The notes under the pieces were generated by a model, which worked only from the letters and a program-made list of their open reading frames with translations, was not told where the DNA came from and ran no database searches. This document shows, in pieces, positions 14,919 to 20,615 of a stretch of DNA of 37,825 nt. Each line of letters opens with the position of its first letter. Position 1 is the stretch's first letter. The translations under genes and the position numbers were made by a program. This stretch comes from Acidimicrobiales bacterium. GTDB lineage: Bacteria; Actinomycetota; Acidimicrobiia; Acidimicrobiales; SZUA-35. The DNA lies in NCBI GenBank assembly GCA_024638815.1, contig JAHEJM010000028.1, positions 1,478 to 39,302 of the forward strand. The letters are read 5' to 3'.

Positions 14919-17744
14919 TCAGCTACATCCACTGGTGTTGCCACACCCAGGACAGGCGTGGCAACTACCAGCTCGTTGCATGGTGATGCCGCACTGCATG
15001 CAAATCGGTGCATCGGGATCGGCCACCGGCGCGTTCGACGACTCGGTGGACGGTCGCTCCGATGAGGACTCGGTGGCCGACCAGTTGGCCAGCAGATCGT
15101 CGGCCGATTCCACCGAGGGAGGATCGACCGGGAGTTCGCCCGGAGAGGAAACGGCCTCGTCCACACCGGGCAGTGTGGGCTGGCTACGCTCGCCGGTGGT
15201 GAAGATGCCGAGCGAGGCTCGGTCCTCATAGCTGAGATAGAACACGGCGAGCTTGCGGAACAGGTAATCCATGATGGAGGTGGCGATCCGGATGTCGGGA
15301 TCATCGGTCATGCCCGCCGGTTCGAACCGCATACCGGTGTAGGTCTCCACATAGGCCCGTAGCGGCACCCCGTACTGGAGGCCGTGGCTGAGCGACAGGG
15401 CCAGGGCATCCATGATTCCGGCCATGGTCGAGCCCTGCTTGGACACCCTCAGGAACACCTCGCCGGGACGACCGTCGTCATATTCACCCACGGTGACGAA
15501 GGCCTTGCAGTCGGCCACCCGGAACTCGAAGGTACGGGACCGGCGATCGCGGGGCAGCTTCTCCCGAACCGGCTTGTAGATGATCTTGGGCTCGGGCTCG
15601 ACGACCGGGGCTGCGGTTGCGGTGGCCGACCGGTCATCATCGTTGTCGGCGTCCGACTTCTTGGCCATGGACAGCGGCTGGGCCACCTTGCAGTTGTCGC
15701 GGTAGATGGCGATGGCCTTGACCCCCATCTTCCAGGCGTCGATGTGGAGTTGCTCCACGTCCTCGACCGAGACCTCCTCGGGCATGTTCACCGTCTTGGA
15801 GATGGCCCCGGAGATGAAAGGCTGCACGGCGGCCATCATCTTGACATGGCCGAGGTAGTGGATGGGATTGTCTCCCATGGAGCAGGCGAACACGGCCACA
15901 TGCTGATCCTGCAGTCCCGGGGCGCCGAGGATGGTCTTGTTCTCGTCGATGTAGGCCACGATGGCGTCGATCTGCTCGGAGCTGTAGCCGAGGCGGCCCA
16001 GAGCCCGGGGAACGGACTGGTTGACGATCATCATCGTGCCGCCACCCACCAGCTTCTTCATCTTGCATAGACCGAGGTCGGGCTCGATACCGGTGGTGTC
16101 GCAGTCCATGAGCAGGCCGATGGTGCCGGTGGGAGCCAGCACGGTGGCCTGGGCGTTACGCACCCCGACCGACGGGCTCAGCTCACACACCCTGTCCCAG
16201 GCGTCGCCGGCTTCGTCGAGTATGGCGACCGGAGCATTGTCGCCGTCGATGTCGGATACGGCGGCCCGATGCTGGTTCAGCACCCGCAGCATGTGCTCCT
16301 CGTTGTCCTCGTAGCCGGCGTGGGGGCCCATCCGGGCCGCGGTACGAGCCGAGGTGTAGTAGGCGTGGCCGGTCATCAGGGAGGTGATGGCGGCCGCCGT
16401 GGCCCGCCCTTCGTGCGAGTCGTAGGGTAGGCCCAGGTTCATCAGCAGGGCACCGATGTTGGCGTAGCCGAGACCGAGCTGGCGGAATCGACGGGAGTTC
16501 TCGCCAATTGCCTCGGTGGGATAGTCGGCCCGTCCAACCAGAATCTCCTGAGCGGTGAAGAAGTGCTCGACCGCCGTCTTGAACCCCTCGACATCGAAGG
16601 TGTCATCCGGGTCGAGGAACTTGAGCAGGTTGAGGCTGGCCAGGTTGCAGGCCGAGTTGTCCAGATGCATGTACTCGCTGCACGGATTGGATCCGTTGAT
16701 CTTGCCGCTGTTGACCGAGGTATGCCACCGGTTGATGGTGGAGTCGAACTGCATGCCGGGATCGGCGCACTCCCACGACGCCTGAGCGAACTGGCGCATG
16801 ATGTCGCGGGCCTTGACCATGCGGATCACGTCGCCGGTGGTACGGGCCACCAGGTTCCAGTTCTCGTCGTTGACCACGGCCTGCATGAACTCGTCGGTGA
16901 CCCGGACCGAGTTGTTGGCGTTCTGATACTGGATGGAGTGGCTGTCGGCGCCGTCGAGATCCATGTCGAAGCCGGCTTCCCGGAGCACCCGGGCCTTGCG
17001 CTCCTCGGTGGCCTTGCACCAGATGAACTCTTCGACGTCGGGGTGGTCGACGTCGAGCATGACCATCTTGGCCGCCCGGCGCGTCTTGCCCCCCGACTTG
17101 ATGGTTCCGGCCGAGGCGTCGGCGCCCCGCATGAAGCTGACCGGGCCCGAGGCCGTACCGCCGCCCCTCAGCTGCTCGTCGGACGATCGGATTCGAGACA
17201 GGTTGATGCCGGCACCGGAACCACCCTTGAAGATCACGCCTTCCTCGACGTACCAGTTCAAGATCGCATCCATGGTGTCGTCGACCGCCAGGATGAAACA
17301 GGCCGAGGCTTGCTGGGGGACGCCGCGAACTCCGATGTTGAACCACACCGGCGAGTTGAAGGCCCCCATCTGGTTGATGATGAGGTACTTCAGCTCATCG
17401 TTGAAGATCTGGGCTTCGGTGGCGTCGAAATAGCCGTCCTCGATACCCCACTTGGCGATGGTGTCGACCACCCGGTCGACCACCTGCTTGAGCGACGTCT
17501 CGCGCTCATCGGTGCCAAGGGTGCCCCGGAAGTACTTCTGGGCCAGGATGTTGGTTGCGTTGACGGACCAGAAGTTGGGGACCTCGACATCGAGCTGCTC
17601 GAAAGCGATCTCACCGGTCTTCCAGTTGGATATCCGAGCGTCACGCTTCTCCCACGTGACGGTGTCATACGGATCGACCCCGGCGGTGGTGTAGTACCGA
17701 CGGAGGCCAATGCGGGTTTGCTCGGATGCGAGGGCCATTTTCAC
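14919..17744 (-). CDS. nrdJ: Vitamin B12-dependent (class II) ribonucleotide reductase
   Basis: A 941-residue adenosylcobalamin-dependent ribonucleoside reductase that makes deoxyribonucleotides without oxygen dependence. The N-terminal part has FNSPVWFNIGV, ASACFILAVDD and VIFKGGSGAGINLS. The active-site region holds NPCSEYMHLDNSACNLASLNL, with the radical cysteine and the conserved Asn and Glu. LAPTGTIGLLMDCDTTGIEPDLG is the phosphate-binding loop. The last 30 residues carry paired cysteines, CMQCGITMQ and CHACPGCGNTSGCS, as in actinobacterial NrdJ. It is full length. It appears to be transcribed from a promoter near 18600 covered by NrdR boxes, leaving a leader of roughly 840 bases. The ATG at 17744 has a weak GAAG upstream; an ATG two codons downstream is an alternative. 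Confidence 0.97.
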   Translation of the reverse strand: MKMALASEQTRIGLRRYYTTAGVDPYDTVTWEKRDARISNWKTGEIAFEQLDVEVPNFWSVNATNILAQKYFRGTLGTDERETSLKQVVDRVVDTIAKWGIEDGYFDATEAQIFNDELKYLIINQMGAFNSPVWFNIGVRGVPQQASACFILAVDDTMDAILNWYVEEGVIFKGGSGAGINLSRIRSSDEQLRGGGTASGPVSFMRGADASAGTIKSGGKTRRAAKMVMLDVDHPDVEEFIWCKATEERKARVLREAGFDMDLDGADSHSIQYQNANNSVRVTDEFMQAVVNDENWNLVARTTGDVIRMVKARDIMRQFAQASWECADPGMQFDSTINRWHTSVNSGKINGSNPCSEYMHLDNSACNLASLNLLKFLDPDDTFDVEGFKTAVEHFFTAQEILVGRADYPTEAIGENSRRFRQLGLGYANIGALLMNLGLPYDSHEGRATAAAITSLMTGHAYYTSARTAARMGPHAGYEDNEEHMLRVLNQHRAAVSDIDGDNAPVAILDEAGDAWDRVCELSPSVGVRNAQATVLAPTGTIGLLMDCDTTGIEPDLGLCKMKKLVGGGTMMIVNQSVPRALGRLGYSSEQIDAIVAYIDENKTILGAPGLQDQHVAVFACSMGDNPIHYLGHVKMMAAVQPFISGAISKTVNMPEEVSVEDVEQLHIDAWKMGVKAIAIYRDNCKVAQPLSMAKKSDADNDDDRSATATAAPVVEPEPKIIYKPVREKLPRDRRSRTFEFRVADCKAFVTVGEYDDGRPGEVFLRVSKQGSTMAGIMDALALSLSHGLQYGVPLRAYVETYTGMRFEPAGMTDDPDIRIATSIMDYLFRKLAVFYLSYEDRASLGIFTTGERSQPTLPGVDEAVSSPGELPVDPPSVESADDLLANWSATESSSERPSTESSNAPVADPDAPICMQCGITMQRAGSCHACPGCGNTSGCS

Positions 17745-18585
17745 TTCACTTTCTGACTACTGATGCTTCGTATCGTCGACCGGCCCGGAGGCGGATCGAC
17801 CGATGATGATCATTGCGACACGGCACATGGGTGATTGACAACAATGGGCTTTCGACATTTCCGGTTGTTGATCAACCTGCCTGCGACCCGATTGGTCGTC
17901 CTCACTCGTCCTTGTCGACATTGATTCGACGAGGCAATGATTTGGTTCAGTTGTACGGTGCGGCTGTGACACTTTGCCGAGCTGTGTCGGCGTCGGCCGT
18001 GCGCTCACGTCGACCGGTTCGAGGCAGTGGGCCTGGTGCCGATGTCGGTGTCGCCCGGTCGCGGTCGCGTCGAGCCGCTACCTGGTTCGTTGCGTGTACT
18101 CAGCCCGAGGGCTGAACGATGTTGTAGTCAGCACAACAGAACCCGCCGTTCCGCCCGTCGGGCGTTGCTCCGTGCGCCTCTCCTCTGACCGTTGAACCGT
18201 ACCGACCCCCTTTCCACCCAGGTCGATCCGTCCTGCGGCCCCTTCTGTCTTCTCACACGGAACGCCCCGAAAGGGCCGTTCTGTACTCGTGGAAGATGGT
18301 TGCTGCGTGTGCTCCGACTGGTTTTTGCTCCTTCGGCTCTCCTGTTTGTCTTGGCGGTAGGTTGCGTGGTCTCGGCGTGGCCGCTCGGTGCCTCAGCCGG
18401 AGCGAATCCGGTGGATCGGCGGGCGAATGGCGGCAGGCGGTTCGACCAGGCAGCAGACTCGCAAACCCCTGCTCGTCGGCCGGTGGTGGGTGTTTTCTCC
18501 CACCGATCGGCGAGCTTGGCTACTAGCCAGCCACTAGATCTTGTGCTTGCCGCCAGCTCGACTTCGAGCGACGCACAAGATGTAG
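17745..18585 (-). promoter_or_regulatory. Long structured 5' leader predicted for nrdJ
   Basis: This stretch between the predicted nrdJ transcription start and the gene has no convincing ORF. The longest frames have third-position GC clearly below that of real neighbours. Several perfect stem-loops occur: 18100-18115 (TCAGCC, 6 bp), 18120-18138 (TGTTGT, 6 bp), 18152-18164 (CGCCC, 5 bp), 18257-18284 (8+3 bp), 18397-18411 (CCGGA, 5 bp) and 18471-18515 (9 bp with two wobbles, internal loop, then 6 bp). Because nrdJ needs B12, a cobalamin riboswitch was looked for, but no B12-box-like sequence was found. The leader could hold an unrecognised RNA switch, or the promoter may lie closer to the gene than supposed. 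Confidence 0.4.
18531..18546. promoter_or_regulatory. NrdR box A
   Basis: CCACTAGATCTTGTGC matches the NrdR-box pattern acaCwAtATaTwGtgt at every strongly conserved position. It starts 42 bases before box B, four helical turns, so both lie on the same face of the DNA. Confidence 0.85.
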
Positions 18586-18588
18586 TTT
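18573..18588. promoter_or_regulatory. NrdR box B
   Basis: GCACAAGATGTAGTTT fits the NrdR-box consensus with one mismatch in the conserved half-sites. It begins four bases downstream of the predicted -10 of the nrdJ promoter and covers the expected transcription start, a position suited to repression. Confidence 0.85.
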
Positions 18589-18591
18589 GCC

Positions 18592-18621
18592 ATTACATCA
18601 TTGTAATTACGACGGTGTCAA
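18592..18621 (-). promoter_or_regulatory. nrdJ promoter (TTGACA, 18-bp spacer, TGTAAT)
   Basis: On the minus strand a perfect -35 TTGACA (18616-18621) is followed after 18 bases by TGTAAT (18592-18597), which differs from TATAAT at one position. The spacer and -10 are AT-rich against a GC-rich background and contain the dyad ATTACA-TCAT-TGTAAT. The only downstream gene on this strand is nrdJ, 840 bases away. The immediate NrdR boxes make this assignment likely. Confidence 0.65.
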
Positions 18622-18639
18622 TGGGCGTTTTTTGATTTT

Positions 18640-19136
18640 GTGGCAAATTGCCCGGGCCGAACCGGCGACGGCACCCCGAACCCCACCACCATCGGGGTCC
18701 ACGCCACCTCCCCGCCGATGAACCGTCATCGCAGAACCCGCGAGATGGAGCCTCGGGCACGGGCGCGGCCCGACGTCGGGCCCCAGCCCGGGCGCCGGTC
18801 TCGCCACGGACGTGTGGCCCCGCACCGGTGCCGTCGGTTGTCGCTCCTGCCCGGGCCCGCTTCATTCGACCTCGATCCCTTCCCTGCCGTTTACTCGCCC
18901 CGCCGTAATCGGCGGGACATTCGCCCGGTCGCAGGGCAGGGCGCGGTGACGGAGATCGAGACGTCGGTATCAGGTCGAGGTTCGATCGTTGGCCGGCGAA
19001 CGTTCGCCGATCCGGACATAGCTAGCAAACCCATGGAGTCCCGTGTCAAACCAGGCTCCTACCATACTGATGCCCTACACCGACCTCCGTCACGCTGCCC
19101 CACGACGGGCGTACCCCCACCGTAGTGACGGCCACC
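18640..19136. other. Gene-free stretch with perfect palindromes
   Basis: About 500 bases in which no frame looks like a protein. Three inverted repeats stand out: GGCCCGACGTCGGGCC at 18767-18782 (16-bp perfect palindrome), CCCGCC-GTAATC-GGCGGG at 18899-18916, and CGGCGAACGTTCGCCG at 18994-19009 (16-bp perfect palindrome). The first and third look like dimer-binding sites more than RNA hairpins because they have no loop. No -10/-35 pair or known regulator box was recognised. CGAACGTTCG resembles the LexA half-sites but lacks the 4-base spacer. Confidence 0.35.
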
Positions 19137-19180
19137 TGTGGATTGTAAGGGGAAGACAATGTGGATTTTGTTGTGGATTA
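19137..19180. other. Cluster of DnaA-box-like sequences
   Basis: TGTGGATTG (19137-19145), TGTGGATTT (19160-19168) and TGTGGATTA (19172-19180) are in the same orientation. The common DnaA box reads TGTGNATAA, so each shares the TGTGGAT core and differs at one or two of the last two positions. A weaker TGTGGGCAG follows at 19192. Local sequence is AT-richer than its surroundings. No dnaA or dnaN gene is nearby, so this is unlikely to be the main origin. Confidence 0.4.
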
Positions 19181-19310
19181 CCCGTCCGGGCTGTGGGCAG
19201 GTGTGACGGAGCGGGGATGTCCTGGGGATAGCCCGGTGGCGGCCGCCGTCACCGGTACGGGGCGGGCGACGCCACATCATCCGACCACGTGCTCGGCATC
19301 ATCTGTTCAA

Positions 19311-19316
19311 TATGAT
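19311..19316 (+). promoter_or_regulatory. -10 hexamer TATGAT for the RibD-like gene
   Basis: TATGAT ends six bases before the GTG at 19323, the best -10 match among the leaderless genes. It fixes the start; the open frame further upstream would not be transcribed from here. Confidence 0.65.
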
Positions 19317-19322
19317 GGCCGA

Positions 19323-20108
19323 GTGAAGCGCCTTTATCCCCCCAATGGCTTGATCGACACCGATGGCGACGACGACACCGTCGATCCCCTGGACGAGGTC
19401 GGTCGAGAACGCCGCCCCACCCACACCGACCGGCCGTGGGTCTTGACCAACATGATCAGTTCGGCCGACGGGGCCACAGCGGTGGGCGGCGTGTCCGGCG
19501 CCTTGGGTGGAGACGGCGACCGGGCCATGTTCCGAGCACTGCGAGGCGTGGCCGACATCGTGTTGGCCGGTGCGTCGACGGTTCGACAGGAGCGGTACCG
19601 GCCGGCTGCACGTCATGACGAGACCGTCGACCGGCGGCGAGCCCGGGGCCAGGCCGACCGACCCCGCATCGCCGTCATCACCGCCTCGGCGAGATTGGAT
19701 GAGACCCTTCCCCTCTTTCACGACCCCGACGATCGACCCATTATCCTCACCGGCGGTTCGGCCGATGCCGATCGCCTGACCCGCCTTCGTACGGTGGCCG
19801 AAGTCATCGTCGCCGACGACGACTCGGTGGCCCCGGCCTGGGCCCTGGCCCGGCTCCACGCCCTTGGGGCCGGCGTGGTGCTGTGCGAGGGAGGACCGTC
19901 GCTCAACGGCCAGTTCGTGGCCGCCGGCCTCATCGATGAGTGGAACCTCACCATCGCGCCCATGACCGTTGCCGGTGATTCCCCCCGCGCCGCCGTCGGA
20001 CCGCTGCCCGAGGGTCCCCCGCCGGGCATGACCCTGGAGCGAGTGTGGGTTGATGACGAGGACTACCTCTTCTGCCGGTGGACGCGTCGAACCTACCCGG
20101 GTTCCTAG
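19323..20108 (+). CDS. RibD C-terminal / dihydrofolate-reductase-like protein
   Basis: A 261-residue protein of the RibD_C reductase family, which shares the dihydrofolate-reductase fold and uses NADPH. Diagnostic segments are RPWVLTNMISSADGATAVGGVSGALGGDGDRAMFRALRGVADIVLAGASTVRQERY (substrate and cofactor region), IAVITASARLD, ILTGGSAD, and GAGVVLCEGGPSLNGQFVAAGLIDEWNLTIAP with the GGP nucleotide loop. It lacks the N-terminal deaminase of bifunctional RibD. The pyrimidine reductase step of riboflavin synthesis is possible, but many such proteins have other reductase roles and no rib genes adjoin. The first 35 residues are variable. The GTG start is set by TATGAT six bases upstream. Confidence 0.85.
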   Translation: MKRLYPPNGLIDTDGDDDTVDPLDEVGRERRPTHTDRPWVLTNMISSADGATAVGGVSGALGGDGDRAMFRALRGVADIVLAGASTVRQERYRPAARHDETVDRRRARGQADRPRIAVITASARLDETLPLFHDPDDRPIILTGGSADADRLTRLRTVAEVIVADDDSVAPAWALARLHALGAGVVLCEGGPSLNGQFVAAGLIDEWNLTIAPMTVAGDSPRAAVGPLPEGPPPGMTLERVWVDDEDYLFCRWTRRTYPGS

Positions 20109-20144: not shown

Positions 20145-20615
20145 CTACGGAACCGGCGATTCGCTGGGATCGCGCTTGATCAGCCGGGCCTCGCGCTCGA
20201 AATCGTCGATGTCGGTGAAGTCTTTGTAGACCGAGGCGAATCGAAGATAGGCCACCTGGTCGACGGACCGGAGCTGGTCGAGCACCGCCAATCCGATCCA
20301 CTCCGATGTGACCTCGAAACCCTGGCTTCGGGCCCGTTCTCGAACCCCGTCGACGATGGCCTCGAAGTCATCGGTCGTCAACGGCCGACCTTTACACGCC
20401 GCCATCAAGCCGTCCACGATCTTCTGACCGTCGAACGGCTGCCGCTCCCCGGAACGTTTCACCACCACCAAGGGGGACTGCTCCACCTTCTCGAACGTGG
20501 TGAACCGCTGCTCGCACGACACGCATTCCCGCCGGCGACGGATGGAGGCGCCGTCATCAGCCGAGCGCGAATCGATGACCCGGGTATCGCTGGCCATACA
20601 TACCGGACATCGCAT
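20145..20615 (-). CDS. nrdR: Transcriptional repressor NrdR
   Basis: A 156-residue ATP-cone regulator of ribonucleotide reductase genes. The zinc ribbon is MRCPVCMASDTRVIDSRSADDG with RRRRECVSCEQRFTTFEKVE, four cysteines in CxxC pairs. The ATP-cone follows: VVVKRSGERQPFDGQKIVDGLMAACKGRP to AYLRFASVYKDFTDIDDF. NrdR senses ATP/dATP and binds NrdR boxes; two such boxes lie upstream of nrdJ, about 2 kb away. The start is the ATG opening the zinc ribbon, with TAGCTT seven bases upstream. It lies 104 bases downstream of the LysM gene, so read-through from the LexA-controlled promoter is also possible. The lexA, LysM, nrdR order is the one known from mycobacteria. Confidence 0.97.
   Translation of the reverse strand: MRCPVCMASDTRVIDSRSADDGASIRRRRECVSCEQRFTTFEKVEQSPLVVVKRSGERQPFDGQKIVDGLMAACKGRPLTTDDFEAIVDGVRERARSQGFEVTSEWIGLAVLDQLRSVDQVAYLRFASVYKDFTDIDDFEREARLIKRDPSESPVP

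Follow-up and report, generated by a model that had tools for sequence, protein, structure and literature searches.

A predicted McdR-type operator accompanies paired NrdR boxes at the promoter of a class II ribonucleotide reductase gene of Acidimicrobiales

The window, by which we mean the whole analysed stretch of 37,825 nucleotides, contains on its minus strand the gene nrdJ for a class II (adenosylcobalamin) ribonucleotide reductase (RNR; 14919..17738), which is recognised by Pfam and by the NCBIfam model PRK06556 (1413.5 bits, cut-off 859). On the same strand lies nrdR, the gene of the zinc-ribbon/ATP-cone repressor NrdR (20145..20615; TIGR00244, 179.9 bits, cut-off 124.65). In the window's own genome, which is about 91% complete, no RNR large subunit other than NrdJ was found, and NrdJ matches no ATP-cone family in Pfam or NCBIfam; the only ATP-cone protein found in this genome is the nrdR product. 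Judged by nrdJ, the closest named relatives are metagenome assemblies of Acidimicrobiales and Acidimicrobiia.

Upstream of nrdJ, the minus strand presents in succession a TTGACA hexamer (-35, 18616..18621), an 18-bp spacer, a TGTAAT hexamer preceded by TGn in the manner of an extended -10 (18592..18597), NrdR box 1 (GCACAAGATGTAGTTT, 18573..18588), 26 bp, the downstream NrdR box 2 (CCACTAGATCTTGTGC, 18531..18546), 792 nt and the ATG of nrdJ at 17738. Transcription would start 7 nt after the -10, at a position that box 1 overlaps, and would yield a long untranslated leader (17739..18585). Both boxes are palindromic with C4 and G13, and they start 42 bp apart with a 26-bp spacer between them, a distance of four helical turns. 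The initial annotation of this DNA had claimed two NrdR-like boxes at this distance, and their positions are confirmed; when 17739-19322 was resampled 1000 times with a first-order Markov model, two comparable 16-mers at a distance of 20-60 bp never arose, under a consensus fitted to the window's own boxes. A TTGACA-N18-TGTAAT promoter facing nrdJ and adjoining a box had also been claimed and was found as described, the -10 ending 3 bp from the box end at 18588. Regulator, site and target do lie together in the window, the distance between nrdR and the nearer box being about 1.6 kb rather than 2 kb as had been stated.

The leader of about 840 nt is long for a bacterial gene and contains no minus-strand open reading frame of at least 90 aa. 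These two features would suit a scenario in which an unseen promoter near 17745 drives nrdJ, the promoter at 18531-18622 making another RNA. We consider this very unlikely: in 12 leaders of the genus and family inspected by eye, nothing promoter-like is conserved nearer the ATG, where only the ribosome-binding region looks conserved (most of them carry an RBS-like cAGAAAGnGAA), and the promoter module stays constant while the distance from box 1 to the ATG spans 97-899 nt among the four-turn relatives, being longest in the window's own genus. A leader conserved in sequence was rejected, as blastn at E <=0.01 recovered only the window's own copies. No Rfam family matched at gathering score in the window, nor at E <=1 within 17600-19400, and a cobalamin riboswitch or an nrdJ RNA in the leader was rejected on these grounds; the leader's fold has a z of -2.2, and one of 20 shuffles folded equally well. 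The NrdR boxes are near-complementary, so that a hairpin could form at the 5' end of the RNA. A conserved RNA hairpin between the boxes was nevertheless rejected, as the inner stem is weakly supported (mean z of -0.72 over 77 spacers, two-sided change in 3 of 12 predicted pairs, and an unfavourable covariation term of +0.23) and the outer pairs arise because the boxes are palindromic.

The initial annotation had named conservation in relatives as a test of its reading, and the boxes pass it. Upstream regions of nrdJ were taken from 39 genomes of the family (37 with an RNR match), 80 named loci and 29 further loci of the class, and 133 regions were scanned, over at most the 1500 nt nearest the gene, with a symmetric matrix built from first boxes. 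This matrix was trained on family members, which therefore match by construction, as the loci of other families do not. The 133 regions include one copy of the window itself and some genomes twice; two more window copies and four loci with fewer than 120 nt upstream were left out, and two loci (L030, L032) lack the N-terminus of nrdJ. A pair scoring at least 20 bits was present in 106 regions and missing from 27, the best of 133 single-base shuffles reaching 14.5 bits. Removal of identical promoters left 95 distinct ones, which are related and do not stand for independent events.

In these 95 promoters the boxes start 41-43 bp apart in 77 cases (41 in 26, 42 in 45, 43 in six) and 30-32 bp apart in 17 (30 in one, 31 in 13, 32 in three), so that 94 have an integral number of turns; the last is a doubtful pair at 48 bp (L089), and no promoter has a spacing of 33-40 or 44-47 bp. 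Seven pairs first scored at 38 or 39 bp were shifted by 3 bp to 41 or 42 because C4 and G13 then fit, and one (L100) stays at 31. A relative with a complete genome, Aquihabitans sp. G128 (L060), has a 42-bp pair. From this distribution we conclude that the spacing changes by whole helical turns, four turns being usual in Acidimicrobiia. The survey thereby constitutes a natural experiment, with three or four turns and otherwise a single doubtful case.

The linker of the window's NrdR exceeds by three residues the linker of the 7p37 chain, which we take to be S. coelicolor NrdR, and aligns without a gap to the 9fvr chain, presumably E. coli NrdR. The idea that linker length is relevant to box spacing comes from PMC12051234. 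As a cause of the four-turn spacing it was rejected: of the 57 NrdRs whose linker was covered, 55 share the window's length, including all five three-turn loci among them, and the exceptions are L036 (+3) and L139 (+1 relative to the window).

The initial annotation was right about four turns, and its view of this spacing as a departure from the usual three does not hold, as four turns are the norm in this group and are known elsewhere. Streptomyces coelicolor nrdRJ and nrdAB and E. coli nrdHIEF likewise have palindromic paired boxes at an RNR promoter, in helical phase and with GC pairs nine apart, in the presence of nrdR (PMC9110341, PMC12051234), although the spacers there are 15-16 bp, or three turns, as compared with 26 bp here (PMC12051234). 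The NrdR pairs of Streptococcus pneumoniae, a member of an unrelated phylum, have 25-26 bp spacers and hence four turns, and tolerance has been demonstrated in vitro for four NrdRs with 12-27 bp spacers (PMC12051234). Altogether, the claims about the NrdR pair, the promoter, the target and the nearby nrdR stand, and the earlier reading is partly supported. The boxes are real and of a known kind, and their spacing, already known elsewhere, is newly seen here; the interesting object is the promoter that carries them.

This promoter is not a plain one, as had been assumed, but also contains a conserved, predicted McdR-type operator. The sequence AATTACAATGATGTAATG (18591..18608, minus strand) has one mismatch to AATnACAnnnnTGTnATT, the site published for McdR/ResR, which regulates cell division in mycobacteria (PMC9040748). 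Spacer and -10 together read AATTACA-atga-TGTAATg, and 11 of the 12 specified positions of the motif fit; its right half coincides with the -10, and the right arm ends in G instead of T. An octamer, GTAATTAC (18603..18610, minus strand), occupies positions 6-13 of the 18-bp spacer and thus its exact centre. A second, weaker palindrome of McdR-like form, ATTGACACCGTCGTAATT (18605..18622, minus strand; two mismatches), overlaps the first and contains the -35; it may simply be the -35, and composites like it occur in the mcdR-like promoters described below.

None of 1000 Markov resamplings of 17739-19322 contained the McdR motif at one mismatch or fewer. The aligned promoters display a conserved spacer, GKAAYTAC, followed by nnTGn ahead of TGTAAT, and 91 of the 95 promoters have a McdR motif with at most two mismatches immediately before box 1, as compared with one of 95 shuffles; in the other four the site has three mismatches. 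In the own genome, GTAATTACANTGNTGTAAT is matched perfectly once, at nrdJ, with one other match at three mismatches. One congener (G032) has two nrdJ copies (L013 and, by its record name, L038), each with a McdR and NrdR promoter. A search of the phylum with a longer spacer pattern at one mismatch or fewer gave hits in 40 of 296 genomes, 19 of them outside the class, including 10 of one family (f54). Two loci of this family (L171, L172) carry a tripled GTAATTAC-like array with a 14-bp period, which in L171 (about 1480-1530) stands directly before a MerR_1 gene beside a BFN-nuclease gene and is probably the MerR gene's own operator. The position of this array pointed to a MerR regulator. Elsewhere outside the class, the contexts inspected (L144, L165-L170) showed no recognisable RNR gene.

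One protein of the own genome, P0001 (contig C90), matches MerR_1 with 55.3 bits and is the only match there to the MerR protein from that locus; no NCBIfam model above cut-off names it. Homologues of P0001 at E <=0.001 were found in 79 of 80 genomes of the class (the weakest at 4e-4), with several matches per genome in many of them, that is, MerR paralogues. A BFN nuclease gene adjoins the mcdR-like gene in 26 of 30 loci, and a BFN gene fragment lies upstream of P0001 in the own genome; the Rv1830 gene, too, presumably follows a BFN gene. Such a BFN/MerR neighbourhood has been described for Actinobacteria (PMC6683498). Gene neighbourhood, motif and a whiB target in common lead us to predict that P0001 is the McdR/ResR orthologue; the own genome encodes this McdR-like protein alongside NrdR. 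The upstream stretches of the 30 mcdR-like genes contain GTAAYTAC or GTAGTTAC in 20 cases, as compared with three of 600 shuffles, and come within three mismatches of the McdR motif in 18, as compared with 23 of 600 shuffles. None of the 30 has a full-consensus McdR site; the best site has two mismatches in one promoter, three in 17, four in nine and more in three, two of which are truncated stretches (L204, L216).

The presence of MerR paralogues in many genomes of the class might mean that the site at nrdJ belongs to a different regulator, such as an FtsR-type MerR paralogue or a factor with a similar palindrome. FtsR (Cg1631/Rv1828) is comparable in being an actinobacterial MerR regulator of division encoded in the same gene cluster, but it binds another motif, which in the Corynebacterium glutamicum ftsZ promoter reads AACCCTAAAGTAAAGGTTGAGGGTA and is unlike the nrdJ site (PMC6683498). 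Moreover, the own genome gave a single MerR match, and the motif at nrdJ agrees with the published McdR motif and shares with it the whiB target. We accordingly see only a slim chance that another regulator is involved, and take a McdR-like protein to be the probable ligand.

A further explanation would dispense with a second regulator altogether. The TGn beside TGTAAT, with its variable n, looks like an extended -10, and TTGACA and TGTAAT by themselves resemble half-sites, so that the conserved spacer could be a promoter feature only, namely an extended -10 with a motif favoured by actinobacterial RNA polymerase, with NrdR as the sole regulator. The distribution of the palindrome at other genes makes this improbable. 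In the own genome, 20 sites occur at two mismatches or fewer as compared with five for a reversed-pattern control, and seven as compared with one at one mismatch or fewer. A one-mismatch site lies 130 bp from the WhiB gene, and two-mismatch sites belong to dnaA, dnaN and a uvrD-like gene; at three of the seven one-mismatch sites there is no clear target. Another one-mismatch site of this genome lies 58 bp upstream of a gene that by eye is SbcC-like.

Among 12 congeners, 79 sites at one mismatch or fewer stand against four for the reversed-pattern control. Within the regions examined, which take in two of the six sites of one congener (G034), dnaE1 has a site before it or at its start in 12 of 12, trpS/scpA in 10, whiB in 10 and dnaA in four; nrdJ has one in all 12, as taken from the motif list in 11 and read from locus L009 in G034. 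For 27 genomes of the order, the own one included, the count is 107 sites as compared with two in the control. Assignment covers 80 of these 107, of which 41 are upstream of marker genes (DnaE1 13, WhiB 17, NrdJ-like 7, RecA 2 and TrpS/ScpA 2, counting one WhiB that is only 47% alike and one NrdJ-like match of 24%); at the remaining 39 no marker gene matched. Both comparisons with the control speak against a mere promoter feature, as does the placement of the palindrome, judged by eye, at other genes: it overlaps a -10-like TAGAAT at scpA, follows just after a -10-like sequence at dnaE1 and the mcdR-like genes, and lies near the starts of whiB and mcdR-like genes.

Several of these sites have neighbours of their own. 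Upstream of dnaE1, the McdR-type site is directly followed in six of 14 loci by the DnaA-box-like TTGTCCACAG, and near versions are present in two more (L290, L303); this suggests that dnaE1 is jointly controlled by DnaA. In three congeners each, a McdR-type site is located 68 bp upstream of a yajC-like gene that is followed by secD, and upstream of a gene for a protein with, by eye, a pentapeptide-repeat-like tail.

Class I RNR genes provide an additional comparison. Class I-like matches occur in 12 genomes of the family, of which 11 were examined, the match in G009 being a fragment only; NCBIfam models, applied to five of them, identify alpha and beta subunits in G013, G017 and G038 and alpha in G010 and G016. 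A McdR motif at two mismatches or fewer is present in all 11 upstream stretches, as compared with 10 of 220 shuffles. An NrdR pair at 40-41 bp is found in five of the 11, and nrdR was found in exactly these five genomes; the pair is thus present in five of five genomes with nrdR and in none of the six without it, two of the six being assemblies of 55% and 81% completeness. Among these 11 relatives NrdR box and nrdR gene go together, while the palindrome is kept at the class I RNR in the six genomes without NrdR boxes, which again argues against a promoter feature with NrdR as sole regulator. The predicted operator is common to class II and class I RNR and is kept where nrdR was not found. In seven genomes of the family that also have class I-like matches, nrdJ has no NrdR pair, and the McdR element is gone from six of these nrdJ copies, the seventh (L025) keeping a four-mismatch trace; six further nrdJ stretches, chosen from members of the order that gave two or three RNR matches each, have neither pair nor element.

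Taken together, we consider it likely that the nrdJ promoter is doubly controlled by NrdR and a McdR-like MerR protein, with binding, repression and transcription start predicted from the sequence. In this model a strong sigma70-type promoter at 18531-18622 (TTGACA, 18-bp spacer, extended -10) would drive nrdJ. The McdR/ResR-type operator would lie over the -10 and part of the spacer, the second overlapping palindrome would probably cover the -35, and the two in-phase NrdR boxes, four turns apart, would lie over and after the transcription start. NrdR loaded with dATP and ATP would be expected to occupy both boxes and to switch the promoter off when dNTPs are plentiful. A tetramer of NrdR in this state kinks DNA and restricts the access of polymerase (PMC9110341), and a position over the predicted start and the first transcribed bases is as expected for such a tetramer. 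P0001 would be expected to sit on the upstream operator and to block RNA polymerase. dNTP synthesis would in this way be tied to a cell-cycle or growth signal that is also applied to dnaE1, scpA, whiB and P0001's own gene.

The effect of the McdR-like protein is probably repression rather than activation, because the palindrome covers or follows -10 or -10-like sequences at nrdJ, scpA, dnaE1 and the mcdR-like genes. Activation of nrdJ in the fashion of MerR proteins is a tentative alternative, which would fit an octamer centred exactly between -35 and -10, as in MerR activator sites. Overexpression of McdR in M. smegmatis repressed whiB2 and raised the mRNA of the replication genes recA, dnaB and dnaN (PMC9040748); this rise runs counter to simple repression of such genes and leaves room for activation or for indirect effects. 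On the other hand, the nrdJ spacer measures 18 bp and those of MerR-activated promoters 19-20 bp (PMC9040748), the -35 and the -10 are each close to consensus, the whole palindrome extends over the -10, and the sites at scpA, dnaE1 and the mcdR-like genes overlap or follow -10-like sequences; we thus retain repression as the preferred reading.

Motif, MerR family membership and whiB target link this system to McdR/ResR (Rv1830) and the whiB2 operator of mycobacteria, with its AATnACAnnnnTGTnATT (PMC9040748); it differs in that Acidimicrobiales have the motif repeatedly at nrdJ or class I RNR, dnaE1, scpA and partly dnaA. Two papers on McdR/ResR describe the family through whiB2, division, DNA repair and translation (PMC9040748, PMC10336103). 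The main text of PMC9040748 contains none of the terms 'nrd', 'ribonucleotide', 'dnaE1', 'dnaA' and 'scpA', and that of PMC10336103 neither of the first two, supplements aside in both cases, and the available text of PMC12051234 mentions no McdR-type site for the S. pneumoniae pairs. Supplements and most subscription papers aside, we found no literature that joins NrdR with Acidimicrobi- or ResR with NrdR or ribonucleotide reductase.

The recurrence of the motif suggests a role of the McdR/ResR family in replication, and there may be a direct link between DNA-precursor supply and the cell cycle. An operator common to RNR, dnaE1, scpA, whiB and, probably, the gene of the regulator itself would bear on how actinobacteria couple dNTP supply to the cell cycle. 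We lean slightly towards the view that chromosome replication in Acidimicrobiia has a master regulator in the McdR-like protein, acting through its palindrome on nrdJ or class I RNR, dnaE1, dnaA/dnaN, scpA, in some genomes recA, whiB and its own gene. If this is true, a single switch would serve dNTP supply, DNA synthesis, condensation and division alike, and NrdR would be a separate brake, driven by dNTP feedback and stacked on the RNR promoter.
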